DNA of 64,000 nt, taken from positions 186,001-250,000 of the forward strand of contig SSEL01000009.1 of the NCBI GenBank assembly GCA_008012315.1. Reading direction: 5' to 3'. Numbering within the stretch: position 1 is the stretch's first letter; each line of letters begins with the position of its first letter. The DNA comes from Rhodospirillaceae bacterium. Lineage in GTDB: Bacteria > Pseudomonadota > Alphaproteobacteria > Dongiales > Dongiaceae. The notes under the pieces are model-generated. The model did no database searches. It was not told the DNA's origin and worked only from the letters and a program-made list of their open reading frames with translations. Positions 40,158 through 56,903 of the stretch are shown here, piece after piece. A program made the position numbers and the translations under genes.

Positions 40158-40254
40158 CTCATCCCCTGATGCCAAATCTCTGCCGGCGAACATGGCCACG
40201 GATGGCCCCTTTGTCCGTGTCGAACAATCAGGGAAGGGGTGAAATCTTGTCAAA

Positions 40255-40310
40255 GTCGCGACTTGCTGTAACATGACGCGAATTGTCCTTAACTCGCGTC
40301 AAGTCGCGTC
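40255..40310. promoter_or_regulatory. Repeated TCGCG motif between the amidase gene and HTH regulator gene
   Basis: Four related sites lie within 56 bases: palindrome GTCGCGAC (40255-40262), GACGCGA (40275-40281), TCGCGTC (40294-40300) and TCGCGTC again (40304-40310). The second and third form a perfect 7-base inverted repeat, and the last two are 10 bases apart, one helical turn. They end 4 bases before the regulator start, so the regulator may bind here and control both itself and the amidase operon. Confidence 0.6.
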
Positions 40311-40313
40311 TAA

Positions 40314-41138
40314 ATGAGATCCAACGACTCACTGCCCCATAATTTGAAACTGCTTTGTTCGATGCATAGCTCCGTCTCGGATGTCTGCCGGCGCATCGGC
40401 ATGAACCGGCAGCAATTCAACAAGTATCTCTCGGGCGAAAGCCTGCCGTCTGCACATAATCTGCGTCGCATCGCGCTCTATTTCGACGTGGCTTCCGACG
40501 AGTTGTTCCTGCCGGCTGCCGAGTTCAATACGCGCCATGGCGGCCGCATTGCCCGGCCCGATCCCCAGAAAGGCGATGCTTTTTCCCGGATCATGGCGCA
40601 GGCCTTCCCCGGCGATCTGCGGCGGCTGCGCCCCTTGCTCGGCTTCTATCACAGCTATTTCCTGGTGCCGCACTCCCCGAAAAGCATCGTGCGGGCGCTG
40701 TTATGTCTGGAGGAGAATGATGGGCGCGTCTATTCGAAAGATATCGAACGCAGCAGCATCGGCACCAGCATCCGGCAGCGCGGCTATCTATCGAAATATG
40801 ACGGCATCGTCAGCTATCTCGGCAATTGCATCTTCATTCTCGAATTTGAATCGCTGACCGCCGATACCCTGACCGAGACCATTCTGTTTCCCTCTTATCG
40901 CAAGCGGCTGGATATCCTGACCGGCATGACGCTGGGCGTCACTTCGCGGGTGCATCGCCAGCCGTTCAGTTCCCTCATTGCCTGGAAATATCTCGGCCAG
41001 AACATCGATATGCGCCGGGCGCTGTCGCAGTGCGGCTCTCTCGCGGAAAGCGACCGGTCGATCGATCCCAATATCCGCGCATTTCTGCTCTCCGGCGATC
41101 AGCCGACCAGCATGAGCTTCGATCCGCGCGACCATTGA
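40314..41138 (+). CDS. XRE-like helix-turn-helix transcriptional regulator
   Basis: A 274-residue protein. Residues about 8-65 form a lambda-repressor-like HTH (SVSDVCRRIGMNRQQFNKYL, then HNLRRIALYFDVASDELFL). The remaining about 200 residues are a domain I cannot name (RLRPLLGFYHSYFLVPHSPK ...). It is divergent from the amidase operon with repeated motif sites in between, suggesting local control. The start is at ATG 40314; no strong ribosome site is seen, and an almost leaderless transcript is possible. It converges on the RidA-fusion gene 4 bases away. Confidence 0.82.
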   Translation: MRSNDSLPHNLKLLCSMHSSVSDVCRRIGMNRQQFNKYLSGESLPSAHNLRRIALYFDVASDELFLPAAEFNTRHGGRIARPDPQKGDAFSRIMAQAFPGDLRRLRPLLGFYHSYFLVPHSPKSIVRALLCLEENDGRVYSKDIERSSIGTSIRQRGYLSKYDGIVSYLGNCIFILEFESLTADTLTETILFPSYRKRLDILTGMTLGVTSRVHRQPFSSLIAWKYLGQNIDMRRALSQCGSLAESDRSIDPNIRAFLLSGDQPTSMSFDPRDH

Positions 41139-41142
41139 CCCG

Positions 41143-42390
41143 TCAGTCTGTATTCCGATTGGCGGAATCCGGCGTGGCCATGGCGAAGGTGTCGATCTCG
41201 ATGATCATGCCGGGATAGGCCAGGGCCGGGAACGGAATGCCGGTCGTGGCGGGCCCTGGCGCACTGAAATAGGAGGAGCGGATCAGCAGATTGTTGTGGA
41301 GCTCATCCGCATCGCTGCGTCCCTCATACATCGTGGTGATCTTGCAGACATCGGTGAAATCGGCACCCAGCTCGCGCAGGATGGTACCGATATGGGTCAT
41401 CGCTTGGCGGGTCTGCCGCCGCATATTGCCGGGATCGACCGCGCGCCCCTGCTTGTCGAGCGAGACCTGGCCGCCGAGGAAAATCATGTCGTGGCATTTG
41501 AGGCCGTGCCGATAGGGCAGATGCACGGTCCAGTCCCACAGGCTTTCGGGCCAGACGTGCCGCCGCGGCAAACGCTTGCCATCCTCGCCCAGCATCGCCA
41601 CCACCTCGATCTTGATCGCCTGGCCGTCGCGCGGGAAATGCGGCACGGGGATGCCGGTGGCGGCGGGTCCCGGCTCGTTGAAATGCGCGGCGCAGGCAAG
41701 GGCGGCCGGTTCGAAATCCTCGATGCTGCCTTGTCCCAGATACCAGCGATTGAGCTTCACCACATCGTCGAAATCGGCGCCGAAGTCGGACAAGGCGCGG
41801 CCGATCTGGCGCATCACTTGCTTGGTCTGGGCGACGATATCGCCGGGATGAGCGAGCCGGCCGTCTTCCATCGCCGTCTGGCCGCTGACGAAGATCATCT
41901 TGCCGCAGCGCACGGCCTGGACGAAAGGCGCGGGCAGCGGAGAGAGGTCGGGGGCGGTGTTGAGCTGGCGTGGCAGTTCCGCACCATCGGTGCCGCGCAT
42001 CGCATAACCTTCGATGGCGACCGCCATGCCGGGATAAGCGAGATAGGGAAGCGGAATCGCGGTAACAGCCGGCCGGACATTGGCGGGCAAAGCGGCGGCA
42101 ACCAGTTCCAGAAAAGCGGTCTCGCCGACCGAGCCGTCATCCACATAGAAGCACAGCAGCTTGACGAGGTCGGTGAACCGGCAATCCAGGTCTTCGAGCA
42201 CCTGGCGGAAATAATCCAGGCTGTTGGCGATCTGCCGTGAGAGATCATGCGGGTTCCGCACGGTGCCCTCGGCGGTGAGATCGGCCTGTCCGCCAACCCA
42301 GATCATCTGGCCGCACCGCACGCCATGCTGATGGCTGACCTCGACCGGCCAATCCCAGTGGTCGTGCGGCCAGGCATATCGCTTTTCCAT
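41143..42390 (-). CDS. Triple RidA-domain fusion protein
   Basis: 415 residues made of three tandem RidA/YjgF-like units, at about 5-135, 150-270 and 280-405. Each repeats the pattern of a glycine-rich strand (MIWVGGQADL, MIFVSGQTAM, MIFLGGQVSL) and a C-terminal strand after a GIP/AIP turn. RidA normally forms a trimer of about 130-residue chains with active sites between subunits and hydrolyses reactive enamines/imines. The key arginine (E. coli Arg105) is kept only in unit 1 (Arg106, NVRPAVTAI); units 2 and 3 have Ala. Start ATG 42390 follows GGGAG. Divergent from the GntR gene. Confidence 0.88.
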   Translation of the reverse strand: MEKRYAWPHDHWDWPVEVSHQHGVRCGQMIWVGGQADLTAEGTVRNPHDLSRQIANSLDYFRQVLEDLDCRFTDLVKLLCFYVDDGSVGETAFLELVAAALPANVRPAVTAIPLPYLAYPGMAVAIEGYAMRGTDGAELPRQLNTAPDLSPLPAPFVQAVRCGKMIFVSGQTAMEDGRLAHPGDIVAQTKQVMRQIGRALSDFGADFDDVVKLNRWYLGQGSIEDFEPAALACAAHFNEPGPAATGIPVPHFPRDGQAIKIEVVAMLGEDGKRLPRRHVWPESLWDWTVHLPYRHGLKCHDMIFLGGQVSLDKQGRAVDPGNMRRQTRQAMTHIGTILRELGADFTDVCKITTMYEGRSDADELHNNLLIRSSYFSAPGPATTGIPFPALAYPGMIIEIDTFAMATPDSANRNTD

Positions 42391-42454
42391 CGGCTCTCCC
42401 CTGACTGGTCGCTCGGCTGTCGATTCGTGCTCTTGATAATTCCAGCCGAGGAGG

Positions 42455-42464
42455 TGTTATAACA
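42455..42464. promoter_or_regulatory. Palindrome TGTTATAACA, probable GntR operator (copy 1)
   Basis: A perfect 10-base palindrome within GTGTTATAACATAT, in the 112-base divergent gap between the RidA fusion and the GntR/FCD gene. The same 14-base string recurs at 43247-43260 before the ABC operon. FCD-type GntR regulators are known to bind short AT-rich palindromes, so autoregulation and joint control are likely. Confidence 0.7.
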
Positions 42465-42502
42465 TATTTCGAAAATCCGTCAGATCGCCAGGTGCCGAAT
42501 AG

Positions 42503-43162
42503 ATGTCGGTTATGCAGCCTCTCTCCCTCGAACCCTTACACGAGCGCGCCTATAACGCGTTGCGCGGTGCGTTGCGCTCAGGCCGCTTCCGCCCCGGCGA
42601 GGCCATGACGATTCGCGGGCTTGGCAAGGAGCTCGGCATCTCGGCGACGCCGGTGCGTGAGGCATTGCAGCGTTTGATCGCTGCGCAGGCGCTGCAGCTT
42701 CTGCCCAACCGCACCATCATCGTGCCGGTCCTGACGCGCGGCCGCTTCGAAGAAATCACCAAGATCCGGGTGCGGCTGGAAGGCCTTGCGGCGCAGGAAG
42801 CGGCGGGGCGCATGTCACCGGCGGATATGCGGGTCCTGGAAGACCACACGAGCGAAATGGAGACGGCGCTCGCCGAGCGGCGTTTCAACGATTACCTGTC
42901 GCATAACGAACGCTTCCATTTCGCCATCTATGAAGCGGCCGACATGCCCTATCTGCGGCAGATGATCGAATTGTCCTGGCTGCAGACCGGGCCTTGGCTG
43001 AACATGCTGGCGAGCGAAGGCCGGTTCCGGGAAATCGCGAATTCGATCCACGATGAAATCATCAGGGGATTGGTGGCACGGGATCCGGATGCTACCCGTG
43101 AAGCTGTGCAACGCGATATCCTGGAGGCCGCCCGACACCTTGCCCATTTCCTGCCGGAATAG
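42503..43162 (+). CDS. GntR-family regulator, FCD type
   Basis: A 219-residue repressor/activator. The N-terminal winged helix covers residues about 10-75 (MTIRGLGKELGISATPVREA). The all-helical FCD ligand domain follows, with Asp/His metal or ligand residues (LSHNERFHFAIYEAADM, SIHDEIIRGLVARD). FCD regulators usually sense small carboxylates or sugar acids. It sits between the two palindromes and immediately ahead of the ABC/diol-dehydratase operon, so it is the likely pathway regulator. ATG 42503 or 42512 could start translation. Confidence 0.92.
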   Translation: MSVMQPLSLEPLHERAYNALRGALRSGRFRPGEAMTIRGLGKELGISATPVREALQRLIAAQALQLLPNRTIIVPVLTRGRFEEITKIRVRLEGLAAQEAAGRMSPADMRVLEDHTSEMETALAERRFNDYLSHNERFHFAIYEAADMPYLRQMIELSWLQTGPWLNMLASEGRFREIANSIHDEIIRGLVARDPDATREAVQRDILEAARHLAHFLPE

Positions 43163-43247
43163 ATAATTCATTGATATAATGTTGTTAATTCAGAAATGAC
43201 GGTCCGGTGACAGAAACCTGTTGCCATCTGGAAAGTCTTTGCTCTAG

Positions 43248-43257
43248 TGTTATAACA
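43248..43257. promoter_or_regulatory. Palindrome TGTTATAACA, probable GntR operator (copy 2)
   Basis: Second copy of the perfect palindrome, in the same 14-base context as copy 1, located 97 bases before the first permease gene. Its TATAAC could overlap a -10 element, which would fit repression by blocking RNA polymerase. No clear -35 was found 16-18 bases upstream. Confidence 0.7.
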
Positions 43258-43353
43258 TATATCAGACACCATATTGTGAGGCAGTATGGCGAAGCCACCC
43301 GCTCTCTTGCAGCGGCACGGCCGGTCTGAAAACAGGATGGGAGGAGAGCGGCC

Positions 43354-44178
43354 TTGATCGACGAGCCGAAATGGCTGCGTGTCGCCACGCATGCGATTTT
43401 GATTTTTGCCAGCGCGGTCATTCTGCTGCCCCTGCTCTGGGTGCTGCGGACCTCCTTTGCCGATAAGGTCATCGCCTACAAGATTCCGCCGGATCTCTTC
43501 TTCACGCCGACCTTCGACAATTATCGGGACATCCTGCTGCAATTCGATTTCGGCAGTTTCTTCCTGAACAGCCTGCTGATCGCCGTGATGACGACACTGA
43601 TCGCCTTGGCGATCGGTGCTTTGGCGGCTTATGTGATCGATCGTCATCGCACCGGCGGCCCGGTGGCGCCGATCGCCATTCTAGCAACGCAGATGATGCC
43701 GCCGATCGTGCTGGTGATCCCTTTCTTTCTGATCTTCAAGAAGATCGGCCTGACCGATACCCATGCCGGCCTGGTGATTTCCTATCTCACCTTCAATCTG
43801 CCTTACGTCATCTGGCTGCTGATGAGCTTCTTCAAGCGGGTGCCGCGCGAATTGGATGAAGCCGGCCTGATCGACGGCTGCTCGCCCTTCACCGTCTTTC
43901 TGCGCATCGTGCTGCCGGCGGCCCTGCCGGGCATCGGCGCCGCGGCGGTGTTGAGCTTCGTTCTCTGCTGGAATGAATTTCTCTTCGCGCTGATGCTGAC
44001 CGGCCAGGAGACGAAGACGCTGCCGGTTGCGATCTCCAGCCTGGTGACGCAGCAGGGCACGGCGATCGGCGCCGTTTCAGCCGCAACGATGCTGGCGATC
44101 ACGCCGATGGTCATCGTCTATTTCGCGATCCGCAAGCTGCTGGTTGCCGGTCTCAGCCTGGGGGCGGTGAAGGGATAA
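43354..44178 (+). CDS. ABC transporter permease, MalG/CUT1 type
   Basis: Inner-membrane permease of 274 residues with six helices. The cytoplasmic EAA loop that docks the ATPase is DEAGLIDGCSPFTVFLRIVL near residue 170. The first helix is near 11-31. Translation starts at TTG 43354 after GGGAGGAGAG. CUT1 systems import sugars, polyols and glycerol phosphodiesters. Unusually, this second-type permease gene comes first in the operon, ahead of the binding protein. Confidence 0.92.
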   Translation: MIDEPKWLRVATHAILIFASAVILLPLLWVLRTSFADKVIAYKIPPDLFFTPTFDNYRDILLQFDFGSFFLNSLLIAVMTTLIALAIGALAAYVIDRHRTGGPVAPIAILATQMMPPIVLVIPFFLIFKKIGLTDTHAGLVISYLTFNLPYVIWLLMSFFKRVPRELDEAGLIDGCSPFTVFLRIVLPAALPGIGAAAVLSFVLCWNEFLFALMLTGQETKTLPVAISSLVTQQGTAIGAVSAATMLAITPMVIVYFAIRKLLVAGLSLGAVKG

Positions 44179-44251
44179 TCCTTTCGGTCAAGCCGGCCAG
44201 GGGCCGGACATCTTCAGATTACTTCATGAAATCAAAACGGGAGGTTGGCTC

Positions 44252-45559
44252 ATGCGTAAGTTTCTCAGTTCAGCCGCTCTGGTGGCGATGGCATTGCCAT
44301 TGCTGACCGGCGGCGCGAATGCAGCGGCAAGCGATGTCTGTAAAGGCCAGGACATCAATATCCTGATGGAAACCGTGCCGGATACGACGGCCTTGCAGGG
44401 CGTGAAGGACGAGTTCGAAAAGCAGTCTGGCGCCAAGGTCAATATCGAGGCCGTCAACTACTCGCTGATGCATGAAAAGCTGGTGCCCAGCCTGACTGCT
44501 TCGACCGGCACCTATAATGTGCTGATCGTCGACAGCTACTGGGTCGGCGAATTCAAGACGGCGGGCTGGATCATGCCGCTGGACGACCTGATCGCACGAG
44601 ACAAGGTCGATACCGGCGTCTATGTGCCGAGCTTGATGGAGCTGAACGGCAAGGTCGACGGCACGACCTATATGCTGCCTTTCTGGCAGTATGCGATGGG
44701 CCTGCTCTACCGCAAAGATATCGTCGACGATCCGGCTTTCCAGGCGGCCTATAAGGAAAAGTTCCAGCGCGACTGGCGCCTGCCGGAAAGCTTGGAGGAA
44801 TATGCCGAGGTCGCCAAATGGGCCGGCGAATACAAGAAGATGTATGGCGTCGCCATGGCAGGCCAGCGCGCCGATCCGGTGGTGATGGAAGCGACCAACT
44901 ATCTTTTCAGTGAAGGCGGCGATTTCTATGACCGCAACAGCTGGAAGTCGACGATGGACAGCCCGGAAGCGGCGAAGGCCGTCGGCGTCTATGCCGATCT
45001 AATGAAAAATGCCGCACAGCCGGGCGCGCTCGGCGCCAATTTCGACGATGTTGCCAACACGCTGAAACAGGGCAAGGCGATCTTCTCCATCAGCTATCTC
45101 TTCCTTTTCCCGACCTTGCAGGATCCGAAGGACTCGCAAGTCGTCGACAAGATGATGTTCGCGCCGATGCCCGGCAAGGACAGCTTCCTCGGCGCCTGGG
45201 GCTGGGCGATCCCGAGCAATGCGCCGAACAAGGATTGCTCCTGGGAGTTCCTGAAATGGGTCGAGTCGAAGGATGTCGCGCTCAAGCGCGCCATGGCTGG
45301 CGGCCAGCCGACCCAGGCCTGGATCTATGACGATAAGGATTTCATCGCCAAATGGCCAATGATGGCGCAAGTCGGTGACGCCCTGAAGCATGCGAAGGGG
45401 CTGCCGATCATGTCGCGCTCGACCCAGTTGGTTGAAACCTTTGCCGAAGTACTGGGTGCGGTATTGGCCGATGGCGCAAAGCCGGAAGAGGCACTGGAAG
45501 AATCGGTGCCGAAGTTCAACCGGCTTGTGAAGGGCGATCCGCTTCTGCATAAGCAGTAA
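44252..45559 (+). CDS. Extracellular solute-binding protein (SBP family 1)
   Basis: A 435-residue periplasmic binding protein with a Sec signal (MRKFLSSAALVAMALPLL, cut near GGANA-AA). The fold-1 pattern of sugar-type binding proteins is visible (VKDEFEKQSGAKVNIEAVNY, then YKEKFQRDWRLPESLEEYAEV and GAWGWAIPSNAPN). It delivers the ligand to the permease pair encoded on either side. GGGAGGTTGGCTC precedes the ATG. Ligand unknown; the enzymes in the same operon suggest a polyol or amino-alcohol rather than a plain sugar. Confidence 0.93.
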   Translation: MRKFLSSAALVAMALPLLTGGANAAASDVCKGQDINILMETVPDTTALQGVKDEFEKQSGAKVNIEAVNYSLMHEKLVPSLTASTGTYNVLIVDSYWVGEFKTAGWIMPLDDLIARDKVDTGVYVPSLMELNGKVDGTTYMLPFWQYAMGLLYRKDIVDDPAFQAAYKEKFQRDWRLPESLEEYAEVAKWAGEYKKMYGVAMAGQRADPVVMEATNYLFSEGGDFYDRNSWKSTMDSPEAAKAVGVYADLMKNAAQPGALGANFDDVANTLKQGKAIFSISYLFLFPTLQDPKDSQVVDKMMFAPMPGKDSFLGAWGWAIPSNAPNKDCSWEFLKWVESKDVALKRAMAGGQPTQAWIYDDKDFIAKWPMMAQVGDALKHAKGLPIMSRSTQLVETFAEVLGAVLADGAKPEEALEESVPKFNRLVKGDPLLHKQ

Positions 45560-45595: not shown

Positions 45596-46528
45596 ATGAC
45601 GGTGACGACCGACACGGTGAGAACTGACCATGGGGTGCCGGGCGCCCGTAACCGGGCAAAACGGAGCGGCGCCCGGCACCGCCTCGTGACCCATTATCTG
45701 TTCATGGCGCCGACGATTATCGTGCTGGCTCTGGTTGTCGCCGCACCGTTATTCTACTCCTTCTATCTCAGCTTCCACGAATTCATCATCACCTACGGCC
45801 AGGGCGATTTCATCGGCTTCGACAATTATGTCGGCGCCCTGGCCGATGATTTCGGCGAGGTGTCCTGGGTCACGATGAAACTGACCTTCTTTGCGGTTGC
45901 CCTCGAATTCCTGGTGGCTTTCGGCCTCGCTCTCCTGCTGAACCGGCCGACCCTGCGCTTCCGTGAAGGCTATCTTGTCATCCTGATGATTCCCATCCTC
46001 ATGACGCCGGTCGCTGTGGCCTTGATGTTCCGGCTGATGTTCAATCCCAATCTCGGCATCATCAACTGGGTGCTCAGTCTGCTTTACATCCCCGGCCAGG
46101 GTTGGTTTGGCGATCCCGCCATGGCGCTTCCCACCGTGATCTTCGTCGATGTCTGGCATGAGACCTCGCTGATGCTGCTGATGCTCTATGCCGGCCTGAA
46201 ATCGCTGCCCAGCGAGCCGATCGAAGCGGCCCGTATCGACGGCGCCTCCCGGCTGCAGATCATCTGGTATGTCATCGTGCCGCTGATGCGTCCGATCATT
46301 CTGGTGACCCTGTTGATCCGGATGATTTCCGCCCTGAAGAGCTACGATCTCATCTACATGCTGACCCAGGGCGGGCCCGGCAAAGCGACGGAGACCATCA
46401 GCTTCTATGCCTATCGGCTTGGCTTCCGCTTTCTCGATATCGGCCAGGCGGCCGCGGTCTCCTTTGTGCTGCTCGGCGTCGTCATCATCCTGACCCTGCT
46501 GCTGCTGCGGGTCATGCGGGAGAATTGA
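45596..46528 (+). CDS. ABC transporter permease, MalF/CUT1 type
   Basis: A 310-residue permease with about six helices. The EAA loop is IEAARIDGASRLQIIWYVIV near residue 205, and the tail has LTQGGPGKATETISFYAYR, typical of MalF-like CUT1 permeases. GGAGAGA lies directly before the ATG. It pairs with the permease encoded before the binding protein. The dehydratase large-subunit ATG begins 2 bases after its stop. Confidence 0.92.
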   Translation: MTVTTDTVRTDHGVPGARNRAKRSGARHRLVTHYLFMAPTIIVLALVVAAPLFYSFYLSFHEFIITYGQGDFIGFDNYVGALADDFGEVSWVTMKLTFFAVALEFLVAFGLALLLNRPTLRFREGYLVILMIPILMTPVAVALMFRLMFNPNLGIINWVLSLLYIPGQGWFGDPAMALPTVIFVDVWHETSLMLLMLYAGLKSLPSEPIEAARIDGASRLQIIWYVIVPLMRPIILVTLLIRMISALKSYDLIYMLTQGGPGKATETISFYAYRLGFRFLDIGQAAAVSFVLLGVVIILTLLLLRVMREN

Positions 46529-46530: not shown

Positions 46531-48795
46531 ATGGCCGATACACCCAACCGCTGGCGTCGCTTCGATGAATGGGATGACCGGCCGCTGCGCTTCGATCGTT
46601 TCGCGGTGGACAATGCCGAAGCCGGTTTCGCCGTCTTCCGCAGTCCCTATGATCCCGACGCCTCGGTCGGCATTGCCGGCGGCAAGGTCGTCATGCTCGA
46701 TGGCCGGCCGGCACCTGACTTCGACATCATCGACGAATTCATCGCCAACCATCATCTCGACCAGGATGTGGTCGAGGAAGCGATGGCGATGGACCCGGCG
46801 GCGGTTGCCCGCATGCTGGTGGATATCAATGTTCCCCGCGCCGAGCTGGAACGGCTGGCGCGCGGCATGACACCGGCCAAGCTGGCCGAGGTTGTCGGCA
46901 GCATGTCGGCGCTGGAAATCACCTTCGCCTATGCCAAGATGCGCCAGCGCCGCACACCCGGCAACCAGGCGCATGTCACCAATGCCAAGGACGATCCCCT
47001 GCAATTGGCGGCGGATTCGGCAACCGCCGTGGCGCTCGGCTTCGATGAGATCGAGACGACCATGCGGGTTGCCAGCAACAGCTGGTCCAATGCCCTGGCC
47101 TGTACGGTCGGCGCTGCCGTCGGCCGTGGCGGCGTCTTGTTCCAGTGTTCGATCGAGGAAGCCGAAGAGCTGCAGATCGGCCTCGCCGGTCTCGCCTCCT
47201 ATGCCGAAACGGTCTCGGTCTATGGCACCGAGCGGGCCTTCATCGATGGCGACGATACGCCCTGGTCGAAGGCTTTCCTGACGGCTGCTTATGCCTCGCG
47301 CGGCATCAAGGCGCGCTGCACCTCGGGTGCCGCGTCGGAATTGCTGATGGGTTTCCATGAGAAGCGCTCGCTGCTTTATCTCGAAGCTCGTTGCCTCTGC
47401 GTGCAACGTGCCATGGGGGTCCAGGGGACGCAGAATGGTGGCATCGACGGTGCGCCGCTGACCGCCTCCATGGCCGGCGGGTTGCGCGAATTGATGGCGG
47501 AAAACCTGCTGGCGGTCTGGCTCGGCCTGGAATGCGCCTCGGGAAACGATACGCGGGTGAGCGAGTCGGAGATCCGGGTCGGTGCCAAGATCACGCCTTA
47601 TCTCTTGGCTGGTTCAGATCTCATCTGCTCGGGCTTTGGCTCGGTCAAGAAATACGACAACTCCTTCAATGCCTCGCTGTTCAACGGCGAGGAGATCGAG
47701 GATTACCTGGTCCTGCAACGCGATTTCGAAGCGGATGGCGGTTTGACGCCGATCGCCGAAGACCGCGTGCTCGATCTGCGCAGCCGGGCGACGGAAGCCC
47801 TTGCCGCGGTATTCGATGAGCTTGGCCTCGCCATCGTCGATCGCGAGATGATCAGTTCGGTGATCTTCGCGTCCGGCTCGGATGAGACGGCGAGCTTCAC
47901 CGCCGGCGAAGCGACGCAGATCAGCGAGCGCATTCAGGCCGACCGGATCACCGCCTTGGATGTCGTCGCGGCGCTGGCACGGCGCGGCTTCCGCCAGGAG
48001 GCGGAAAATCTGCTGCTGATGCTCCGCCAGCGTATTTCCGGCGATTACCTGCAGACCTCGGCGATCATTCGCGACGGCCATGTCATCAGTGCGATCAACG
48101 ATCCCAACGACTATGCCGGACCGGCAACCGGCTATCGGATGCCGCCGGCCCGCTGGGATGCGGTGCGCGGAATCCGTGGCACCGTCTCGCGCGAGTCGGT
48201 TCTGGCCACGGAAGCGGTCGGCGATCATGTGCCGGCGTCGTCGATGCGGCTGGTCGAGAGCGGGCCGGCGACGCAAGGCAGCGACAAGCACGAAGTCGTC
48301 ATCGGCATCAGCCCCGCTTTCGGCGAGAAGCTGCATCGCACCACGGCCGGCCATGCCGTGTCTGATGTGCTGGCTGCTTTGATGGCTGGCATCAGCGAGG
48401 GTGGCGGCAAGCCGCGCATCGTCCGTCTGCGGCACACCGCGGATACGTCCTTCCTCGGGCTCTCGGCGGCTCGTCTCTCCGGCTCGGGCTACGGCATCGG
48501 CATTCAGGCCAAGGGCACGAGCGTTCTGCATCAGGCCGACCGGCTGCCGCATCTCAATCTAGAACTCTTTTCCAATGCGCCGCTGGCCAGCCTGGATCAC
48601 TACCGGGCGCTGGGGCGCAACGCCGCGCGGCACACCTATGGCGAAAAGCCGGAGCCGGTGGTGGTACCGGTCCGTGGCGAGGCCCTGGGCGCGCGCTTCC
48701 ATGTGCGGGTGGCCATGCTTTACGCTATCGAAACCGATCTGGTCGACCCGGCGGCAGCGCCGGTGACGATCGATATCCTGCATGACGGGGCATGA
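46531..48795 (+). CDS. Coenzyme-B12-dependent diol/glycerol dehydratase, fused large and medium subunits
   Basis: A 754-residue radical enzyme that converts a vicinal diol to an aldehyde using adenosylcobalamin. Residues 1-575 match the large subunit (PduC/PddA). Every active-site residue known from Klebsiella oxytoca diol dehydratase (Gln141, His143, Glu170, Glu221, Gln296, Asp335, Ser362) is present at a constant offset of five: Gln146, His148, Glu175, Glu226, Gln301, Asp340, Ser367. From about residue 585 (DKHEVVIGISPAFGEK) the medium subunit (PduD) follows in the same chain, with RLSGSGYGIGIQAKGTSVLH. In the enteric pdu operon these are separate genes. ATG 46531 follows GGGAG. It sits inside an ABC importer operon; no microcompartment genes are near. 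Confidence 0.94.
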   Translation: MADTPNRWRRFDEWDDRPLRFDRFAVDNAEAGFAVFRSPYDPDASVGIAGGKVVMLDGRPAPDFDIIDEFIANHHLDQDVVEEAMAMDPAAVARMLVDINVPRAELERLARGMTPAKLAEVVGSMSALEITFAYAKMRQRRTPGNQAHVTNAKDDPLQLAADSATAVALGFDEIETTMRVASNSWSNALACTVGAAVGRGGVLFQCSIEEAEELQIGLAGLASYAETVSVYGTERAFIDGDDTPWSKAFLTAAYASRGIKARCTSGAASELLMGFHEKRSLLYLEARCLCVQRAMGVQGTQNGGIDGAPLTASMAGGLRELMAENLLAVWLGLECASGNDTRVSESEIRVGAKITPYLLAGSDLICSGFGSVKKYDNSFNASLFNGEEIEDYLVLQRDFEADGGLTPIAEDRVLDLRSRATEALAAVFDELGLAIVDREMISSVIFASGSDETASFTAGEATQISERIQADRITALDVVAALARRGFRQEAENLLLMLRQRISGDYLQTSAIIRDGHVISAINDPNDYAGPATGYRMPPARWDAVRGIRGTVSRESVLATEAVGDHVPASSMRLVESGPATQGSDKHEVVIGISPAFGEKLHRTTAGHAVSDVLAALMAGISEGGGKPRIVRLRHTADTSFLGLSAARLSGSGYGIGIQAKGTSVLHQADRLPHLNLELFSNAPLASLDHYRALGRNAARHTYGEKPEPVVVPVRGEALGARFHVRVAMLYAIETDLVDPAAAPVTIDILHDGA

Positions 48796-49229
48796 CGGCG
48801 ATGACATCTCCAGCCAATCCGCTCGATCTCTATCCGGTGGCCGAAAAGGCGCCGGACCGGGTTCAGACGCCCAATGGCCTCAAGCTGACCGATCTGACGG
48901 TCGAGGCGGTGCTGGCCGGCAAGGTCAAGCGCGAAGACATCGCCATTACACCGCAAGCCCTGATGCTGCAGGCGGAAATCGCGCGGGCGGCGGGCCGGGA
49001 AGCTCTGGCGCGCAACTTCGAGCGCGCGGCGGATCTCGTCCGCGTGCCGCAGGATCTGTTGCTCGACACCTATGAATTGCTGCGTCCGGGCCGTGCCGTC
49101 GGTGCCGATGCCTTGCGGGCGCGTGCCGCCGAGTTGCGGCGCGATTTCGGTGCCGAGCGGGTTGCCGATTTGATTGAAGAGGCTGCCGCCACGTATGAGC
49201 GGCGCGGCCTGTTCGCGAAAAGATTTTAG
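48792..49229 (+). CDS. Diol/glycerol dehydratase small subunit
   Basis: A 145-residue PduE/DhaE-type subunit completing the dehydratase. The segment NPLDLYPVAEKAPDRVQTPN and KLTDLTVEAVLAGKVKREDI match the family start, and LRPGRAVGADALRARAAELR matches its helical end. Its ATG overlaps the stop of the fused large/medium subunit gene (ATGA), so translation is coupled. It has no N-terminal targeting extension for a microcompartment. Confidence 0.94.
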   Translation: MTAMTSPANPLDLYPVAEKAPDRVQTPNGLKLTDLTVEAVLAGKVKREDIAITPQALMLQAEIARAAGREALARNFERAADLVRVPQDLLLDTYELLRPGRAVGADALRARAAELRRDFGAERVADLIEEAAATYERRGLFAKRF

Positions 49230-49242
49230 AAAGGAGATCGCC

Positions 49243-50340
49243 TTGGCCAGCGTGACAGTCAATCAGGTCACCAAGCGTTTCGGCGCTGTCGGCGTCCTGG
49301 AGAAGCTCGACCTCTCGGTCGCCGATGGGGAATTCGTCGTCCTGGTCGGGCCGTCGGGCTGCGGCAAGACGACATTGTTGCGGATGATCGCCGGTCTCGA
49401 GCCGGTGACCGACGGTGAGATTCGCATCGGCGAGCGGGACGTCACCTGGGCCGCACCGAAGGACCGCGACATCGCCATGGTGTTCCAATCCTACGCGCTC
49501 TATCCGCATATGACGGCGGCGGAAAACATGAGCTTCTGCCTGCGTCTCAACAAGACGCCGAAACCGGAGGTCGAAAGCCAGATCGGCCGCGCCGCGCGCA
49601 TGCTGAAGATCGAGCAACTGCTTGGCCGCAAGCCGCGCGAATTGTCCGGCGGCCAGCGCCAGCGTGTCGCCATGGGGCGCGCCATCGTCCGCCGTCCCGC
49701 ACTCTATCTGTTCGACGAGCCGCTCTCCAATCTCGATGCGCAATTGCGCACCAGCATGCGGACCGAGATCAAGCGCATGCATCTCGCCGAAAAGCAGACC
49801 GTCATCTATGTGACGCATGACCAGATCGAGGCGATGACCTTGGCCGACCGCATCGTCGCGATGAATAAGGGCGAGATTCAGCAGATCGGCTCGCCCGACG
49901 ATCTCTATAACCGGCCCGCTTCCCTGTTCGTTGCCTCCTTTATCGGCTCACCGGCGATGAATTTCCTGCCGGGCACGGTTACCGGTGGTGGAATCAGCCT
50001 GGGGGCAACCGGAAACGGCGCGGGGCAGGTCGTTCCCGTGCCGCAGGCCTGGCAATCGGCCTTGGCTGGCCATGAGGGCCGCCGCGTGGTGTTCGGCATC
50101 CGTCCCGAAGCGGTGACCTATGGCGAGCGTGCGGGCTGGCCGAGCTTGCAGATGACGGTCGGCGTCATCGAACCCTGCGGCGCGGAGGTCTATGTCATCG
50201 GCGAGGTGCTTGGCACCGAGATGACGGCGCGTTGCGCGCCGGGGCAGGTGCCGGCCTTGGGCGAGGTCGCGCGGTTCTCGCTGAACATCGACCAGATGCA
50301 TGTCTTCGATGCCGAAAGCGGACGGAGCCTCAGAGCATGA
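49243..50340 (+). CDS. ABC transporter ATP-binding protein, UgpC/MalK type
   Basis: The ATPase of the importer, 365 residues. Walker A is GPSGCGKTT near residue 38; the signature is LSGGQRQRVAMGRAI; Walker B is LYLFDEPLSNLD; the switch His is in YVTHDQIEAMT. A C-terminal TOBE/OB regulatory domain follows from about residue 240. It starts at TTG 49243, 7 bases after AAAGGAG. Its place after the dehydratase genes rather than beside the permeases shows that enzyme genes lie inside the transporter operon. Confidence 0.94.
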   Translation: MASVTVNQVTKRFGAVGVLEKLDLSVADGEFVVLVGPSGCGKTTLLRMIAGLEPVTDGEIRIGERDVTWAAPKDRDIAMVFQSYALYPHMTAAENMSFCLRLNKTPKPEVESQIGRAARMLKIEQLLGRKPRELSGGQRQRVAMGRAIVRRPALYLFDEPLSNLDAQLRTSMRTEIKRMHLAEKQTVIYVTHDQIEAMTLADRIVAMNKGEIQQIGSPDDLYNRPASLFVASFIGSPAMNFLPGTVTGGGISLGATGNGAGQVVPVPQAWQSALAGHEGRRVVFGIRPEAVTYGERAGWPSLQMTVGVIEPCGAEVYVIGEVLGTEMTARCAPGQVPALGEVARFSLNIDQMHVFDAESGRSLRA

Positions 50341-51119
50341 TGCTGAAAGAGCGTATCGCCATCGTCACGGCGGCAGGATCGGGGATCGGCCGCGCCGCAG
50401 CCCAGATCATGTCGGCCAATGGCGCCCATGTCGTCGTGACCGATTTGTCGCCGGCCGGTGCGGCCGAAACGGTGGAGGAGATCCGGCGACAGGGCGGGAA
50501 GGCCGAAGCGCTGGGCCTCAATGTTGCCGATGGCGACGCGGTCAACAAGCTGCTGAGCGATGTCCGCCAGCGTCACGGCCGGATCGACATCCTGCACAAC
50601 CATGCCGGCATCCAGGTTGCCGGCGAGCTGGAACAGATCACGACGGAACAATTCGACCGGTCCTGGGCGATCAATGTCCGGGCGCAATTCGAGGCCTGCC
50701 GTGCAGTCGCGCCAATCATGCGTGAGCAAGGTGGTGGCGTTATCCTGAACACGGCCTCGAATGCCGGGGTTTTTCTCGACAAGGGCATGCTGGCCTATAT
50801 CACCACCAAATCGGCGGTGATCACCATGACCAAGCAGATCGCCCTGGACTATGCGCGCCATAATATCCGGGTGAACGCGTTGTGTCCGGGCTGGATTGAC
50901 ACGCCCTTCAACGCCCCTTACACGCAACAGCTCGGCGGCCGGCCGGCACTGGAGAATGTGGTCGCGAATATGGTGCCGATGGGCCGGTTCGGCCGGCCGG
51001 AAGAGGTCGCGGAAGCGGTCCTGTTCCTGGTGTCGGATCGATCCTCCTTCATCACCGGTCATGCCCTGGTCGTCGATGGCGGCGAATGCCTGGCCGGCGG
51101 TGTGAACTCGACACCTTGA
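50337..51119 (+). CDS. Short-chain dehydrogenase/reductase
   Basis: A 260-residue NAD(P)-dependent oxidoreductase. The cofactor loop is TAAGSGIGRAAA near residue 11, and HNHAG replaces the usual NNAG. The catalytic Ser is in NTASNAG and the YxxxK pair in AYITTKSAV. The acidic residue at the end of strand 2 (VVTDLS) suggests NAD rather than NADP. The start overlaps the ATPase stop (ATGATGA). It probably oxidises an alcohol of the imported compound or reduces an aldehyde; this is an inference from context. Confidence 0.92.
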   Translation: MMLKERIAIVTAAGSGIGRAAAQIMSANGAHVVVTDLSPAGAAETVEEIRRQGGKAEALGLNVADGDAVNKLLSDVRQRHGRIDILHNHAGIQVAGELEQITTEQFDRSWAINVRAQFEACRAVAPIMREQGGGVILNTASNAGVFLDKGMLAYITTKSAVITMTKQIALDYARHNIRVNALCPGWIDTPFNAPYTQQLGGRPALENVVANMVPMGRFGRPEEVAEAVLFLVSDRSSFITGHALVVDGGECLAGGVNSTP

Positions 51120-51241
51120 CCGGGGCATCTTGATCGGCTGGCCCCGATACGATAACCCGGCAGCAATCATCAACGAAGAACGGCGGCAACCCTTTGAGCG
51201 ACATCATCCATACGGCCGGGCAATCGGCCGCCGGGAAAGTT

Positions 51242-52315
51242 ATGCCGATACTCGGTATGCCGGATTCATCCGATTCCGGAAGTAACAACGCCTCGCTGTC
51301 CTCGCCACCGCCGGTTTTTTCGGAAAGCGAGGCAGAGGGACTGGCAAAAACCCATTTCGGCGTGATCGGCACGGCGTCACGTCTGACCAGCGAACGTGAT
51401 GCCAATTTCCGCCTCAAGACCGCTAGCGGCGTTAGTTATGTGCTGAAGATCGCCAATCCGGCGGAAGATCCGCTGGTCACCAATCTGCAGACCAAGGCGC
51501 TGCTGCATATCGCCGCCATCGATTCCAAGATCCCGGTGCAGCGCATCCATCCGACGCTGGACGGCGCGCCGGAATACGCGCTGCCGGACGGCACCGGCCG
51601 CCACATGATCGTCAGGTTGTTTTCATATTTGGAAGGCGAACCGCTGTATCAGGTGAAAAGCCGCCCCGCCTTGCGCCGCAATCTGGGCGCCGCTTTGGCG
51701 GAACTTGGCTTCGCCCTGCGCGGCTTCTTCCACCCGGCGGCGGGTCATGAGCTTCTCTGGGATATCAAGAATGCCGGCCGCATGTGGGATCTGCTGTCCT
51801 TCGTCGAGGAGCCGTCGCAACGAGCGCTGCTCGAGCTGATCCTGACGCGCTTCAACGAGCATGTCACGCCGGCTTTGCCGAGATTGCGGGCACAGATCGT
51901 CCATAACGATCTCAATCCCTATAACGTGCTGGTCGATGCCCAGGATCATAGCCACATCACCGGCATCCTCGATTTCGGCGACATGGTGCATACATCATTG
52001 ATCAATGATGTCGCCGTTGCGGCCTCCTACCAGTTATCGCTGGAGGGTGATCCGCTGGCTGATGCCGGAGATTTCGTTGCCGCCTATCACGCGGTCACGC
52101 CGCTGGAGCCGATCGAGATCGACCTGCTCTATGATCTGATCGGGGCGCGGCTGGCGACGACGGCAACCATCACCAGTTGGCGCGCCGCCCGCTATCCGGA
52201 GAATCGCGCTTACATTCTACGCAACGCACCGCGCGCCTGGGCCGGGCTGGAAGCATTTGCCGCTTTGCCACGGGCGCAGGCGCAGGAGCGGCTGCGTCGT
52301 ATCTGTGGTCTTTAA
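51242..52315 (+). CDS. APH-fold kinase of the hydroxylysine kinase family
   Basis: A 357-residue kinase. The phosphotransferase loop is VHNDLNPYNVL with catalytic Asp223, and the metal site is GILDFGDM with Asp244. Many stretches follow human hydroxylysine kinase (HYKK/AGPHD1): FSESEAEGLAKTHFG, SYVLKIANP, LFSYLEGEP, LWDIKNA, and YPENRAYIL near the end. That enzyme phosphorylates the hydroxyl of 5-hydroxylysine with GTP. Here the true acceptor is probably an amino-alcohol, because the next gene encodes the matching phospho-lyase type. I chose ATG 51242; a TTG at 51194 would add 16 residues. Aminoglycoside resistance is not implied. Confidence 0.88.
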   Translation: MPILGMPDSSDSGSNNASLSSPPPVFSESEAEGLAKTHFGVIGTASRLTSERDANFRLKTASGVSYVLKIANPAEDPLVTNLQTKALLHIAAIDSKIPVQRIHPTLDGAPEYALPDGTGRHMIVRLFSYLEGEPLYQVKSRPALRRNLGAALAELGFALRGFFHPAAGHELLWDIKNAGRMWDLLSFVEEPSQRALLELILTRFNEHVTPALPRLRAQIVHNDLNPYNVLVDAQDHSHITGILDFGDMVHTSLINDVAVAASYQLSLEGDPLADAGDFVAAYHAVTPLEPIEIDLLYDLIGARLATTATITSWRAARYPENRAYILRNAPRAWAGLEAFAALPRAQAQERLRRICGL

Positions 52316-52343: not shown

Positions 52344-53657
52344 ATGTCGATGGTGAATGCCTATATCTCGGGCCGCGAAGGGGACCTCAATGCCCGCGAT
52401 GCCGATCTGATCCGGCGGCGGGAGAAGCTGCTGGGGCCGGCCTATCGTCTGTTCTATGAGCAGCCGCTGCACATCGTGCGGGGCGAGGGGGTCTGGCTCT
52501 ACGATCCCGAGGGCAATGCCTATCTCGACGTCTACAACAATGTCGCCTCGGTCGGCCATTGCCATCCGAAGGTGGTGGAGGCGCTGACCCGGCAGGCCGG
52601 CATCCTCAACACCCATACGCGCTATCTGCATGAAACCATCGTCGATTACGCCGAACGGCTGCTGGCCAAGTTTCCGTCTGAACTGCAGCATGTCATGTTC
52701 ACCTGCACGGGGAGCGAGGCCAATGACCTCGCCTTGCGCATCGCCCGTTCCTATACCAAGCGGACCGGCTTCATCGTCACCAAGCTCGCCTATCACGGCC
52801 TGACCAGCGCGGTGGCTGAATTGTCGCCCTCGCTTGGCGATTATGTGCAGCGCGGCGATCATGTGCGCCTGGTCGCGGCCCCGGATACCTATCGCGGCGG
52901 CCGCGACATCGGCGAGGAATTCGCCGCCGGGGTGAAGGCGGCGATTGCCGATATGCAGGCCAAGGGGATTGAGCCGGCGGCCCTGCTGGTCGACAGCATC
53001 TTCTCCAGCGACGGCATCTTCCCCGATCCGGCCGGCTTCCTGCGCCCGGCAGTCGAGGCCGTGCGCGCCGCCGGCGGCCTCTATATCGCCGATGAAGTGC
53101 AGCCCGGCTTCGGTCGCGTGGGGCCGGCCTGGTGGGGCTTTGCCCGCCACAATCTGGTGCCCGACATGGTGACGATCGGCAAGCCGATGGGGAACGGCCA
53201 TCCGATCGCCGGCGCTGTGATGCAGCCGCATCTGGTCGAGGAATTCGGCAACAGGTCCCGCTACTTCAACACCTTCGGCGGCAATCCCGTCTCTTGCGCC
53301 GTGGGGCGCGCGGTGCTGGAGGTGATTGAGGGAGAGGGGTTGGCGGAGAATGCCGGCACGGTCGGCAAGTATATGCTCGACGGCCTGAAGACGCTCGCCG
53401 CCCGCCATGCGATCATCGGCGATGTGCGGGGGGCGGGCTTGTTCCTCGGCGTGGAATTCGTCAAGGACCGGGCGATCAAGGAAGCTGCTCCGGAAGAGAC
53501 CGCGCGCGTGGTGAATGATCTGCGCCGCCGCCGCATTCTCATCAGCGCCACCGGACCGCGCGCGAATATCCTGAAGATCCGCCCGCCGCTGGTCTTCAGC
53601 CGCGAGAATGCCGATATGTTCCTCGCAACAATGGATGATGTGCTGAAAGCGATCTGA
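52344..53657 (+). CDS. Class III PLP enzyme, ethanolamine-phosphate/phosphohydroxylysine phospho-lyase type
   Basis: 437 residues with the PLP lysine Lys280 in TIGKPMGNGHPIAG. The opening (VWLYDPEGNAYLDVYNNVAS then VGHCHPKVV) and FTCTGSEANDLALRIAR follow the AGXT2L1/AGXT2L2 branch. Those enzymes eliminate phosphate and ammonia from O-phospho-amino-alcohols to give aldehydes; they are not true aminotransferases. The kinase gene lies 28 bases upstream, so the pair makes a kinase/phospho-lyase module. The start follows GGAGGTCTTGA. A conventional omega-aminotransferase role is the main alternative. Last gene of the operon, convergent with paoC. Confidence 0.88.
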   Translation: MSMVNAYISGREGDLNARDADLIRRREKLLGPAYRLFYEQPLHIVRGEGVWLYDPEGNAYLDVYNNVASVGHCHPKVVEALTRQAGILNTHTRYLHETIVDYAERLLAKFPSELQHVMFTCTGSEANDLALRIARSYTKRTGFIVTKLAYHGLTSAVAELSPSLGDYVQRGDHVRLVAAPDTYRGGRDIGEEFAAGVKAAIADMQAKGIEPAALLVDSIFSSDGIFPDPAGFLRPAVEAVRAAGGLYIADEVQPGFGRVGPAWWGFARHNLVPDMVTIGKPMGNGHPIAGAVMQPHLVEEFGNRSRYFNTFGGNPVSCAVGRAVLEVIEGEGLAENAGTVGKYMLDGLKTLAARHAIIGDVRGAGLFLGVEFVKDRAIKEAAPEETARVVNDLRRRRILISATGPRANILKIRPPLVFSRENADMFLATMDDVLKAI

Positions 53658-53660: not shown

Positions 53661-55892
53661 TCAGCTCTCCACAGCCAGCAGATCTTCCAGCCGGATCGGC
53701 AGGTCGCGGATGCGGAAGCCCGTTGCGTGATAGACGGCATTGGCGACGGCAGCATTCGTGCCGACATTGCCAAGCTCGCCGAGGCCTTTGATGCCGAGAT
53801 CGTTGATGGCCTTGTCCTCTTCGGGAACGAAGATGACCTCGACCTCGCGCACATCGGCATTGACCGGAATCAGATATTCGGCAAGGTCGTCGTTATAATA
53901 GCGCGCCGAGGCTTGATCGATTTCGGTTTCCTCATGCAGGGCGGAAGACAGCCCCCAGATCAAGCCGCCCATCAACTGGCTTCTGGCCGTGCGCGGATTG
54001 ACGATGCGCCCGCAGGCAAAGGCGCCGATCAGCCGGGAGCAGCGGATTTCCTTGGTCAGCCGATGGATGCGCAGTTCGACGAATTCAGCGCCGAAGGCGA
54101 ATTGTATCCGGTCCTTCAGTTCTGAACCTCCGGCAAGCATGGAATGACCGTGATAAAGCTTGCCGATACCTTCCTGTGTGGTGCCATGGGGCAGGTTCTC
54201 GGCATAGGCTTCGATACCGTCCTTCGGCAGATCGTTGAGAACCGCATCCAACGGCATGCCTGAGATATCTGTCGCGCTGGCGGCATTTGACTGTTGAAAG
54301 AGCTGCTGCCGCAAGCGGTCGCAGGCCTTTGCAACAACGTTGCAGACACTCGCTGTAGTATTCGATCCGCCGGCAACCGGGGCCGGCGGCAAGTCGGAAT
54401 CGCCGATCTGCACCTCAATATTCGCCAGCGGCAGGCCCAATCTCTCGGCCGCCACCTGGCCGATCACGGTATAAGCACCCGTGCCGATATCATGCGCTGC
54501 CGTCTGTACGATGGCTTTTCCATCCGGCATCAGCCGCACTTTGGCCGCAGCCGGCGCAACGGCCGTGGGATACATGGTGCTGGCGCAGCCCCATCCGACC
54601 AGCCAGTCGCCGTCGCGCATGGCGCCCGGTTTCGGATTCCGCTCATGCCATCCGAAGGCCTTTGCCCCGGCATCGAAACAGGCCATCAAGGATCGGCTGG
54701 TATAGGGCAGTCCCTTGATCGGCTCGACCTGCGTATCATTGATGCGCCGCAGCTCGATGGGGTCGATCCCTGTCGCCACGGCGAGCTCATCCATGGCGCT
54801 TTCCAAGGCAAAGAGATACGGAAGTTCGGGCGGCGAGCGCATGAAGCCCGGCGTGTTCCGGTCGGCATGGGTGATGGAAACCTTGGAATAGATATTGGGA
54901 CACTGGTAGAGCCGTGTCGTCGCCTTGGTGCCGGACACCATGTAATTATCCGGCCGGCTGGTGACTTCCCACGCCTCATGCGAGAGGGAGACAAGCTTGC
55001 CGTCCGGTGTGGCTCCCAGCTTCACATGATGCCGGGTCTCTGCCCGGTAGGTGGCAATGGTGAAACCCTGATCGCGCGTCGGCACCAGTTTCACCGGGCG
55101 TCCCAGCTGCCGGGCGATCTCGGCGATGATCGCCGTGCGCGGCGTCAATGAACCGCGCGACCCGAAAGCACCGCCGATAAAGGGCGATAGGACGCGGATG
55201 TCATTGGGATCGATGCCGAGCTGTTCCGCCAGGCCATATTTGTAGCCCCAGACATTCTGCGACGATTCCCAGACCGTCAGTTTCCCGTCCGACCAATGGC
55301 ACAAAGTGGTGAAAAGCTCGATGGGATTATGGTGCTGTGTCGGCGTGCTGTATGAAACATCGATACGGAGAGCGGCTTGCTGAAAAGCCGTTTCCGCATC
55401 GCCGACCTTTGGATCCTCGTGCGTCTTCGATGCCTCGCTGGCGGCAACGGTCTCGACGCTCGCATCGTCGAAGCTGGCGCTTGCCGGCTGCCGCTCATAG
55501 GCGACATCCAGGCGATAAGCACCTTCCCGGGCGGATTCGAAGCTCTCGCCGATGACGACGGCGACGATCTGGCCGTCATGCAGGATATCGGGCGAGGTCA
55601 GCGGCTGAATGCTCGTTCCCAGATACCCGCCATCGGCCATCAGCTTCCCCGCTTTGACTTTGCCGGCGATGTCGCGATGCGTGTATATGCCGATGACGCC
55701 GGGCACGCGGCGCGCGGCGGTTTCGTCAATGTGGCGGATGCGGCCACGTGCAATCGTGCTCGTCACCAGAAACGCATAGGTCTGGTCCGGCAGGGCGAAA
55801 TCGGAACCATAGGAAGCCGCACCGGTGACTTTGCGCGCGCCATCGATCCGGGCAACATCCTTGCCTATAACGCCTTCGGCTGTCTCGGCCAT
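53661..55892 (-). CDS. paoC: Aldehyde oxidoreductase molybdenum-binding subunit, PaoC type
   Basis: A 743-residue catalytic subunit of a molybdenum hydroxylase. The sequence tracks E. coli PaoC, for example NDTQVEPIKGLPY, GDWLVGWG and the C-terminal KGLGELGNVG with catalytic Glu706. PaoABC oxidises a broad set of aldehydes to acids in the periplasm. The chain has no signal peptide; in E. coli the complex is exported folded using the Tat signal on PaoA. It starts directly at the paoB stop with no gap. Confidence 0.93.
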   Translation of the reverse strand: MAETAEGVIGKDVARIDGARKVTGAASYGSDFALPDQTYAFLVTSTIARGRIRHIDETAARRVPGVIGIYTHRDIAGKVKAGKLMADGGYLGTSIQPLTSPDILHDGQIVAVVIGESFESAREGAYRLDVAYERQPASASFDDASVETVAASEASKTHEDPKVGDAETAFQQAALRIDVSYSTPTQHHNPIELFTTLCHWSDGKLTVWESSQNVWGYKYGLAEQLGIDPNDIRVLSPFIGGAFGSRGSLTPRTAIIAEIARQLGRPVKLVPTRDQGFTIATYRAETRHHVKLGATPDGKLVSLSHEAWEVTSRPDNYMVSGTKATTRLYQCPNIYSKVSITHADRNTPGFMRSPPELPYLFALESAMDELAVATGIDPIELRRINDTQVEPIKGLPYTSRSLMACFDAGAKAFGWHERNPKPGAMRDGDWLVGWGCASTMYPTAVAPAAAKVRLMPDGKAIVQTAAHDIGTGAYTVIGQVAAERLGLPLANIEVQIGDSDLPPAPVAGGSNTTASVCNVVAKACDRLRQQLFQQSNAASATDISGMPLDAVLNDLPKDGIEAYAENLPHGTTQEGIGKLYHGHSMLAGGSELKDRIQFAFGAEFVELRIHRLTKEIRCSRLIGAFACGRIVNPRTARSQLMGGLIWGLSSALHEETEIDQASARYYNDDLAEYLIPVNADVREVEVIFVPEEDKAINDLGIKGLGELGNVGTNAAVANAVYHATGFRIRDLPIRLEDLLAVES

Positions 55893-56903
55893 CTAAACCT
55901 CCATCTCGGCAAGCTGGAGCAGTGCACGGGTCAGGGTCTGCTGGCCGAGATCGACCTTATAGCGATTGCCCGGGCGCGTTACGGCAGCGGCAAAGGCGAC
56001 CTTCGATGCCGCTTCAAATGCCGGAAGATCGGGCCGCCTGCCGATCAGTTGCTGTTCGGCTTCATGAGCCCGCCATGGCTTCGTCGCCACCCCGCCCAAG
56101 GCAATGCGCACATCCCGGATGACGTTGTCGTCCAGATGCATGGCGACGGCGGCGGAGACCAAGGCGAATTCGTAGGATTCCCGGTCGCGGATCTTCAGAT
56201 AGAGCGACCGTCTGGTCCAGGGGCCGATTGGCACATGGAAACCGGTGATGAGCTCACCGGGCAGCAGGACGGTTTCGCGTTCCGGTTCGCTGCCCGGCGC
56301 CAGGTGCAGTTGATGAAAGGGAAGCGTCCGTGTTCCATGGAAGCCGAGAATATCGACGCGCGCCTCCAGCGCGACCAGCGCCTGGCCAAAGTCGCCGGGA
56401 TAGGCGGCGATACAATGGTCGCTGACCCCCAGAATGGCGTGCTTGCGATTGACACCCTCCATCGCCGCGCATCCCGATCCCGGCTGGCGCTTGTTGCAGG
56501 CCGTCCAGCCGGTTTGGCGGAAGTAATTGCAGCGGGTCCGCTGCAGCACGTTGCCGCCAAGGCTGGCCATGTTGCGGATCTGCGGGCTGGCCGCCAGGTC
56601 GAGCGACTGGGCGATGACGGGGAAGTCGCTGCGAATGCGGGGATGATCGGCGGCCGCGCTCATGCGGACAAGCGCGCCCAGTCTCAATTCATCATCCGCC
56701 CAGGAAATATCGCCATAGTCATGGGCGAGGCCATTGATATCGAGAATCTCGGCCGGGGCGAGCGTGCCGAGCTTCATGAGGTCAAGCAGTGTCGTCCCCC
56801 CGGCCAGGTAGCTGACCGCTTTGTCGGCTTCGCCTCGCTGGCGCTGCTGCGCCGCCTTGAGAGCTTGCGGCGTGTCGATACGCTGATAGCCGAAGGGATA
56901 CAT
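55893..56903 (-). CDS. paoB: Aldehyde oxidoreductase FAD-binding subunit, PaoB type
   Basis: A 336-residue flavin subunit. FAD contacts are in the loops SYLAGGTTLLDLMKLG (about 31-46) and ASLGGNVLQRTRC (about 113-125). Like E. coli PaoB it has an insertion with cysteines (Cys125, Cys136, Cys145, Cys164) that in PaoB binds an extra [4Fe-4S] cluster. It passes electrons from the Fe-S subunit to the acceptor. It lies between paoA and paoC in one operon. Confidence 0.93.
   Translation of the reverse strand: MYPFGYQRIDTPQALKAAQQRQRGEADKAVSYLAGGTTLLDLMKLGTLAPAEILDINGLAHDYGDISWADDELRLGALVRMSAAADHPRIRSDFPVIAQSLDLAASPQIRNMASLGGNVLQRTRCNYFRQTGWTACNKRQPGSGCAAMEGVNRKHAILGVSDHCIAAYPGDFGQALVALEARVDILGFHGTRTLPFHQLHLAPGSEPERETVLLPGELITGFHVPIGPWTRRSLYLKIRDRESYEFALVSAAVAMHLDDNVIRDVRIALGGVATKPWRAHEAEQQLIGRRPDLPAFEAASKVAFAAAVTRPGNRYKVDLGQQTLTRALLQLAEMEV

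Follow-up and report, generated by a model that had tools for sequence, protein, structure and literature searches.

Two things chiefly limit B12-dependent diol dehydratases, both in our understanding of them and in industry: their suicide inactivation and their dependence on an ATP-driven reactivase. Ordinary enzymes of this type are inactivated in turnover and repaired by DdrAB or GdrAB, and in the accepted model the small reactivase subunit, which resembles beta, is thought to replace beta by subunit swap (2020 review, PMC7674605). Since reactivation is modelled as an exchange of beta, a covalent fusion of alpha and beta should hinder it. How, then, could a natural dehydratase with both subunits in one chain be kept active? 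The question is raised by two genes in the window, by which we mean the whole analysed stretch of 64,000 nucleotides from a Rhodospirillaceae bacterium:

46531-48795, + strand: fused alpha-beta (large and medium) subunit of an AdoCbl-dependent diol dehydratase (Pfam large- and medium-subunit domains, NCBIfam, PDB alignment, residue check)
48792-49229, + strand: small (gamma) subunit, 145 aa (Pfam Dehydratase_SU, PF02287, 138 bits)

The first is a single open reading frame of 754 aa with an ATG start behind a Shine-Dalgarno-like run, GGGAGAA; the start of the gamma gene at 48792 overlaps its stop codon in the sequence ATGA. Homology of the long chain to diol dehydratase is well past chance (E 7e-211). 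Pfam Dehydratase_LU (PF02286) covers residues 7-554 with 702 bits and Dehydratase_MU (PF02288) residues 594-707 with 85 bits, and together with the small subunit all three domains score above the Pfam cut-off in the window. The large and medium subunits thus share one chain, as the initial annotation had read it. Its placement of the medium subunit after about residue 585 needs a correction, however: the NCBIfam medium-subunit model spans 560-748, so that alpha occupies about 1-556 and beta begins somewhat earlier, near 560-568, and extends to about 750. In a phmmer search against the PDB, residues 7-749 align end to end with 9vi2 and its variants. The 9vi2 chains have 754 residues and are named for both the alpha and the beta subunit of glycerol dehydratase; they appear to be engineered Klebsiella alpha-beta fusions. 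The small subunit of the reactivase belongs to the same Pfam family as beta and was considered as an identity for the C-terminal domain. It was rejected on the extent of the NCBIfam medium-subunit match and on the beta subunits 1iwp_B and 1dio_B, which align over 182-190 residues. An AlphaFold2 model built on an alignment of fused relatives was weak (mean pLDDT 65) and supports no structural claim.

Alignment to 1DIO finds Q141, H143, E170, E221, Q296, D335 and S362 (1DIO numbering) identical in the window protein at a constant offset of +5, exactly as proposed from the sequence earlier, and E208 follows at the same offset. Across 96 fused homologues the seven catalytic and metal-binding residues are invariant, and E208 is kept in 94. 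A gene for cobalamin adenosyltransferase was found in the same genome. With the catalytic residues, the small subunit and this adenosyltransferase all present, the predicted catalytic competence is supported, and the window protein is a fused dehydratase of known type that very probably is catalytically active.

The fusion itself is not new, because Liu et al. 2010 described it and many alphaproteobacterial relatives were found here. According to the summary of that work in PMC7674605, the dehydratase alpha subunits of Mesorhizobium loti and Mycobacterium smegmatis carry an added beta-like part. A scan of one-genome-per-species contigs returned 214 relatives of the query, and all of the 80 that were kept showed one continuous match across alpha and beta. 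Altogether we collected 97 fused loci, two of them incomplete, and the arrangement is common in alphaproteobacteria. In the tree the fused sequences form one or two groups (single-clade support 78/58), which suggests a single fusion event or, at most, two. The second fused lineage, a small one (L089/L136 in G128, L090/L137 in G350, also G891), is closer to the split enzymes, with about 53% identity to Klebsiella and 44% to the window protein, and stands without an amino-alcohol operon. A scan of viral contigs gave one locus (L144, 8001-10262) with a fused dehydratase at 66% identity, which may be host DNA. Less expected than the fusion are three other features: a missing reactivase, changes at positions 301 and 336 and a shell-free operon of amino-alcohol type.

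A profile search of the window's genome found no protein of the reactivase family PF08841 and no free PF02288 domain; its only two PF02288 domains lie inside two fused dehydratases. The search was extended to 44 genome handles, of which 41 are distinct after removal of repeats with identical coordinates (G139/G409 and G350/G408) and of a fragment case (G137). PF08841 was absent from all 44 handles, thus from 41 of 41 distinct genomes with fused enzymes. None of the 41 encodes a stand-alone medium or reactivase-small domain either, every PF02288 match being part of a frame that is 759 aa or longer. The fragment case (L098/L138, G137:C2) is an apparently decayed fused dehydratase with only the first 250 profile positions in frame; it sits beside UgpC-like and permease-like genes.

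As a control, 119 genomes of Enterobacteriaceae were searched, and PF08841 was present in all 14 with a split enzyme, 13 of these carriers being intact at 530 bits or more and one having both genes broken. Reactivase genes are likewise annotated in six of six split plasmid operons (Citrobacter, Klebsiella, Cetobacterium, Ilyobacter, Halomarina and Haladaptatus), archaeal and fusobacterial ones included. The separate alpha and beta genes that had been ascribed to enteric operons are indeed seen in the split operons inspected. Of 387 alphaproteobacterial genomes sampled across the class, nine contained a complete fused dehydratase and none a genuine PF08841 protein (best match 24.6 bits). The association of fused enzyme and absent reactivase is complete in the genomes sampled. 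All tested genomes with fused enzymes are alphaproteobacteria, and because fused and split forms are nested in the phylogeny, the association counts as one or two evolutionary events and not as dozens.

A different, unrecognised protein might reactivate the fused enzyme. Radical B12 enzymes normally need reactivation (PMC7674605), and a profile search finds known families only. However, the conserved neighbours are transporters, an SDR, a kinase, a PLP enzyme and hydrolases, none of which resembles an ATP-driven chaperone, and neither PF08841 nor free PF02288 occurs anywhere in the searched genomes with fused enzymes, so that we regard such a protein as rather doubtful. We favour the reading that the fused family runs without a Ddr- or Gdr-type reactivase, the tether hindering beta exchange. 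For an engineered alpha-beta fusion, slower inactivation has been reported, while the effect of fusion on reactivation is given as unknown (PMC7674605).

The second unexpected feature concerns two residues on the C3 side of the substrate that are not the same in split enzymes as in fused ones. The split reference enzymes conserve Ser301 and Gln336, whereas the window protein has Asp306 and Thr341 at these places. Among 96 fused sequences, 94 have Asp instead of Ser at position 301, and Gln336 is replaced in 95, most often by Ala (65) or Thr (22), more rarely by Cys (5) or Ser (2). In L089 and L090 of the second lineage, whose genomes both lack PF08841, Ser301 is kept and position 336 is Ala. 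Both residues are unneeded for the chemistry and affect substrate C3 contacts and inactivation. When glycerol is bound in the orientation that leads to inactivation, Ser301 touches its 3-OH. In the Klebsiella enzyme with glycerol, kcat/k_inact is about 0.025 for S301A and about 0.022 for Q336A versus 0.009 for the unmutated enzyme (PMC7674605; PMC9850924), a gain of about 2.5-fold (PMC7674605); the double mutant S301A/Q336A shows no gain (0.006; PMC7674605). The sites which engineers mutated against suicide inactivation are thus already altered naturally in the fused family. The Asp at 301 may in addition bind an ammonium group of the substrate.

Alternatively, the window enzyme could be an ordinary dehydratase that acts on 1,2-propanediol or glycerol: the gene fusion would be neutral, and a reactivase would be dispensable at low flux or with a weakly inactivating substrate. 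In favour of this, all catalytic residues are conserved, gene fusions do not require a functional reason, and for the Klebsiella enzyme 1,2-propanediol is a much weaker inactivator than glycerol (k_inact 0.025 versus 1.15 per min; PMC7674605). It fits less well that the C3-side residues are altered almost throughout the fused family and that the neighbourhood is not of pdu or dha type, since propanol or propanediol dehydrogenase, PduL and dha genes are not among the conserved neighbours of the fused loci. We consider this account possible, though somewhat unlikely. The preferred reading, a reactivase-free fused family in an amino-alcohol-type operon, takes up the genes that surround the dehydratase. 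In operon order, eight further genes flank the alpha-beta and gamma genes, four on either side:

42503-43162, + strand: GntR/FCD-family regulator (Pfam; retained in other genera that have this type of operon)
43354-44178, + strand: ABC transporter permease, sugar type (cluster c15, conserved in related loci; "carbohydrate ABC transporter permease" in the Shinella and Agrobacterium counterparts)
44252-45559, + strand: ABC transporter solute-binding protein (Pfam SBP_bac_1)
45596-46528, + strand: ABC transporter permease, sugar type (counterpart annotated "sugar ABC transporter permease" in Shinella and Agrobacterium)
49174-50340, + strand: UgpC-type ABC ATPase (ugpC counterpart annotated in Shinella and Agrobacterium; conserved order); the coordinates are those of the open frame, and translation probably starts a little further downstream, past the gamma gene
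50337-51119, + strand: short-chain dehydrogenase/reductase, SDR (Pfam adh_short_C2)
51194-52315, + strand: APH-family small-molecule kinase, predicted amino-alcohol kinase (Pfam APH; N-terminal part of NCBIfam PRK06148 matched)
52344-53657, + strand: class-III PLP enzyme, predicted O-phospho-amino-alcohol phospho-lyase (best PDB matches)

The PLP enzyme matches the phospho-lyases 5g4i (400 bits) and 6tor (381 bits), the latter being human ethanolamine-phosphate phospho-lyase, far better than aminotransferases (at most 186 bits). For the kinase, the PDB search gave no relative at E<=0.001. Kinase and phospho-lyase together form a known route from an amino alcohol to an aldehyde, ammonia and phosphate. 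The same gene set is annotated on plasmids of Shinella and Agrobacterium, and the operon also occurs in a Parvibaculaceae MAG and in Ancylobacter, Rhizobium and Pseudogemmobacter. Of 71 long loci, 34 have genes for PLP enzyme, kinase and SDR together. The link to amino alcohols does not hold throughout, because kinase and phospho-lyase are both missing within the fetched flanks in 24 of the 71. Near the operon neither a cobalamin riboswitch nor any other Rfam match was found; compared with shuffled sequences, promoter-like sites fell short of the background and terminator-like sites barely exceeded it.

Other operon types occur around fused dehydratases. L012-L018 and similar loci combine a sugar-type ABC transporter and an SDR without kinase or phospho-lyase, some with an aldehyde dehydrogenase. 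In a second type, seen at many fused loci, an isochorismatase-family hydrolase adjoins the dehydratase (e.g. L059, 12688-13392, cluster c3), or a class-I glutamine amidotransferase takes its place (e.g. L053, 12651-13427, cluster c22). In the window, the operon is flanked by a gene for three RidA (L-PSP) domains in one chain (41143-42390, - strand) and adjoined by a three-gene xanthine-dehydrogenase-type oxidoreductase (53661-57575, - strand), neither of which is conserved with the operon in other genomes.

None of the operon genes encodes a shell protein. A free cytoplasmic enzyme had been proposed initially from the lack of targeting extensions. This argument fails, because fused enzymes whose genes lie next to shell genes have small subunits with equally short N-termini, which makes a missing extension non-discriminating. 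The conclusion itself stays plausible from the shell-free context and because all six genomes that were tested for this operon type (Ancylobacter, Rhizobium, Pseudogemmobacter and Shinella) lack any BMC-domain gene.

The window's genome does contain a second fused dehydratase, at G000:C13, in a complete RMM2-like microcompartment locus (about 27900-44200; L135 13902-19187, L083 1-11987). Its shell genes are a BMC-H, two BMC-T-like and a EutN-type gene, accompanied by an acylating-type aldehyde dehydrogenase, a class-III PLP enzyme, a kinase, an SDR, a PotABCD-type importer and a class-I glutamine amidotransferase. The SDR is close (298 bits) to the M. smegmatis RMM enzyme 6ci9, which we take to be 1-amino-2-propanol dehydrogenase. 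Overall, shell genes lie within the flanks of 13 of 71 long fused loci. The window enzyme might accordingly be cargo of a microcompartment encoded elsewhere in its own genome, as fused enzymes beside shell genes also lack long targeting extensions. However, this shell locus adjoins the fused paralog, the window operon is without shell genes, and the same operon exists in the six genomes free of BMC-domain genes; we judge cargo status improbable, and a shell-free version of enzyme and operon is likely.

Taken together, the following explanation is proposed. The window enzyme belongs to an alphaproteobacterial family with beta covalently tied to alpha, and the alpha-beta chain with the adjacently encoded gamma subunit would convert a 1,2-diol to an aldehyde and water by the usual AdoCbl radical route. 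The changed residues 301 and 336 plus the tether might lower the inactivation rate so far that a reactivase becomes dispensable. The operon, with its ABC importer, SDR, APH-type kinase and phospho-lyase, resembles an RMM amino-alcohol pathway minus the shell; kinase and lyase would form aldehydes from amino alcohols, and the dehydratase would form them from a diol, perhaps an amino-diol that Asp306 keeps in place. As a whole, a reactivase-free fused family in a shell-free operon of amino-alcohol type is the explanation we hold to be probable; the activity of the enzyme, its independence from a reactivase and its amino-diol substrate are what we infer from these genes. The boldest version, a self-sufficient B12 dehydratase in which tether, Asp301 and a small residue 336 replace the reactivase, an amino-diol substrate is anchored through its ammonium group at Asp301 and the operon is the shell-free counterpart of an RMM, is put forward tentatively, and we would count it as unlikely in its full extent.

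A large natural family that is fused, has no recognisable reactivase in any of the tested genomes and is altered at the two positions that control inactivation makes the question of fusion and reactivation directly testable on proteins that already exist. It also gives a hint on the substrate, with an acidic residue at the site of the substrate C3 group in enzymes from amino-alcohol operons.

Among known systems, Klebsiella DhaB123 and PduCDE (1IWP, 1DIO) share the subunit families, the catalytic residues and about 45-48% identity over alpha-beta with the window enzyme, but have separate alpha and beta genes, Ser301 and Gln336, and a linked reactivase, DdrA or GdrA with DdrB or GdrB. The engineered Klebsiella fusions (Wang 2009, Gibson 2013 and Maddock 2017, as cited in PMC7674605) likewise join the alpha C-terminus to the beta N-terminus; as described there they are artificial, and their parent enzyme has Ser301 and Gln336. 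The natural fused glycerol dehydratases of M. loti and M. smegmatis (Liu et al. 2010, via PMC7674605) have the same fusion, and the window system, with alpha joined to beta and gamma encoded on its own, conforms to this class. The summary in PMC7674605 mentions neither a missing reactivase nor residues 301 and 336 for them. The Mesorhizobium loci in our collection (L056-L071) reach 67% identity to the window protein, but differ from it in operon type. RMM2 loci (Axen 2014, PMC4207490) combine genes for SDR, phosphotransferase, aminotransferase, permease and GntR regulator with those for a diol dehydratase. The window operon likewise holds SDR, kinase and class-III PLP enzyme next to its dehydratase, but the RMM2 shell and core aldehyde dehydrogenase are absent from it; the RMM2-like locus of this genome is that of the paralog. 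The ethanolamine-phosphate phospho-lyases 6tor and 5g4i, finally, are the closest solved relatives of the PLP enzyme, which differs from them in being encoded together with a diol dehydratase.
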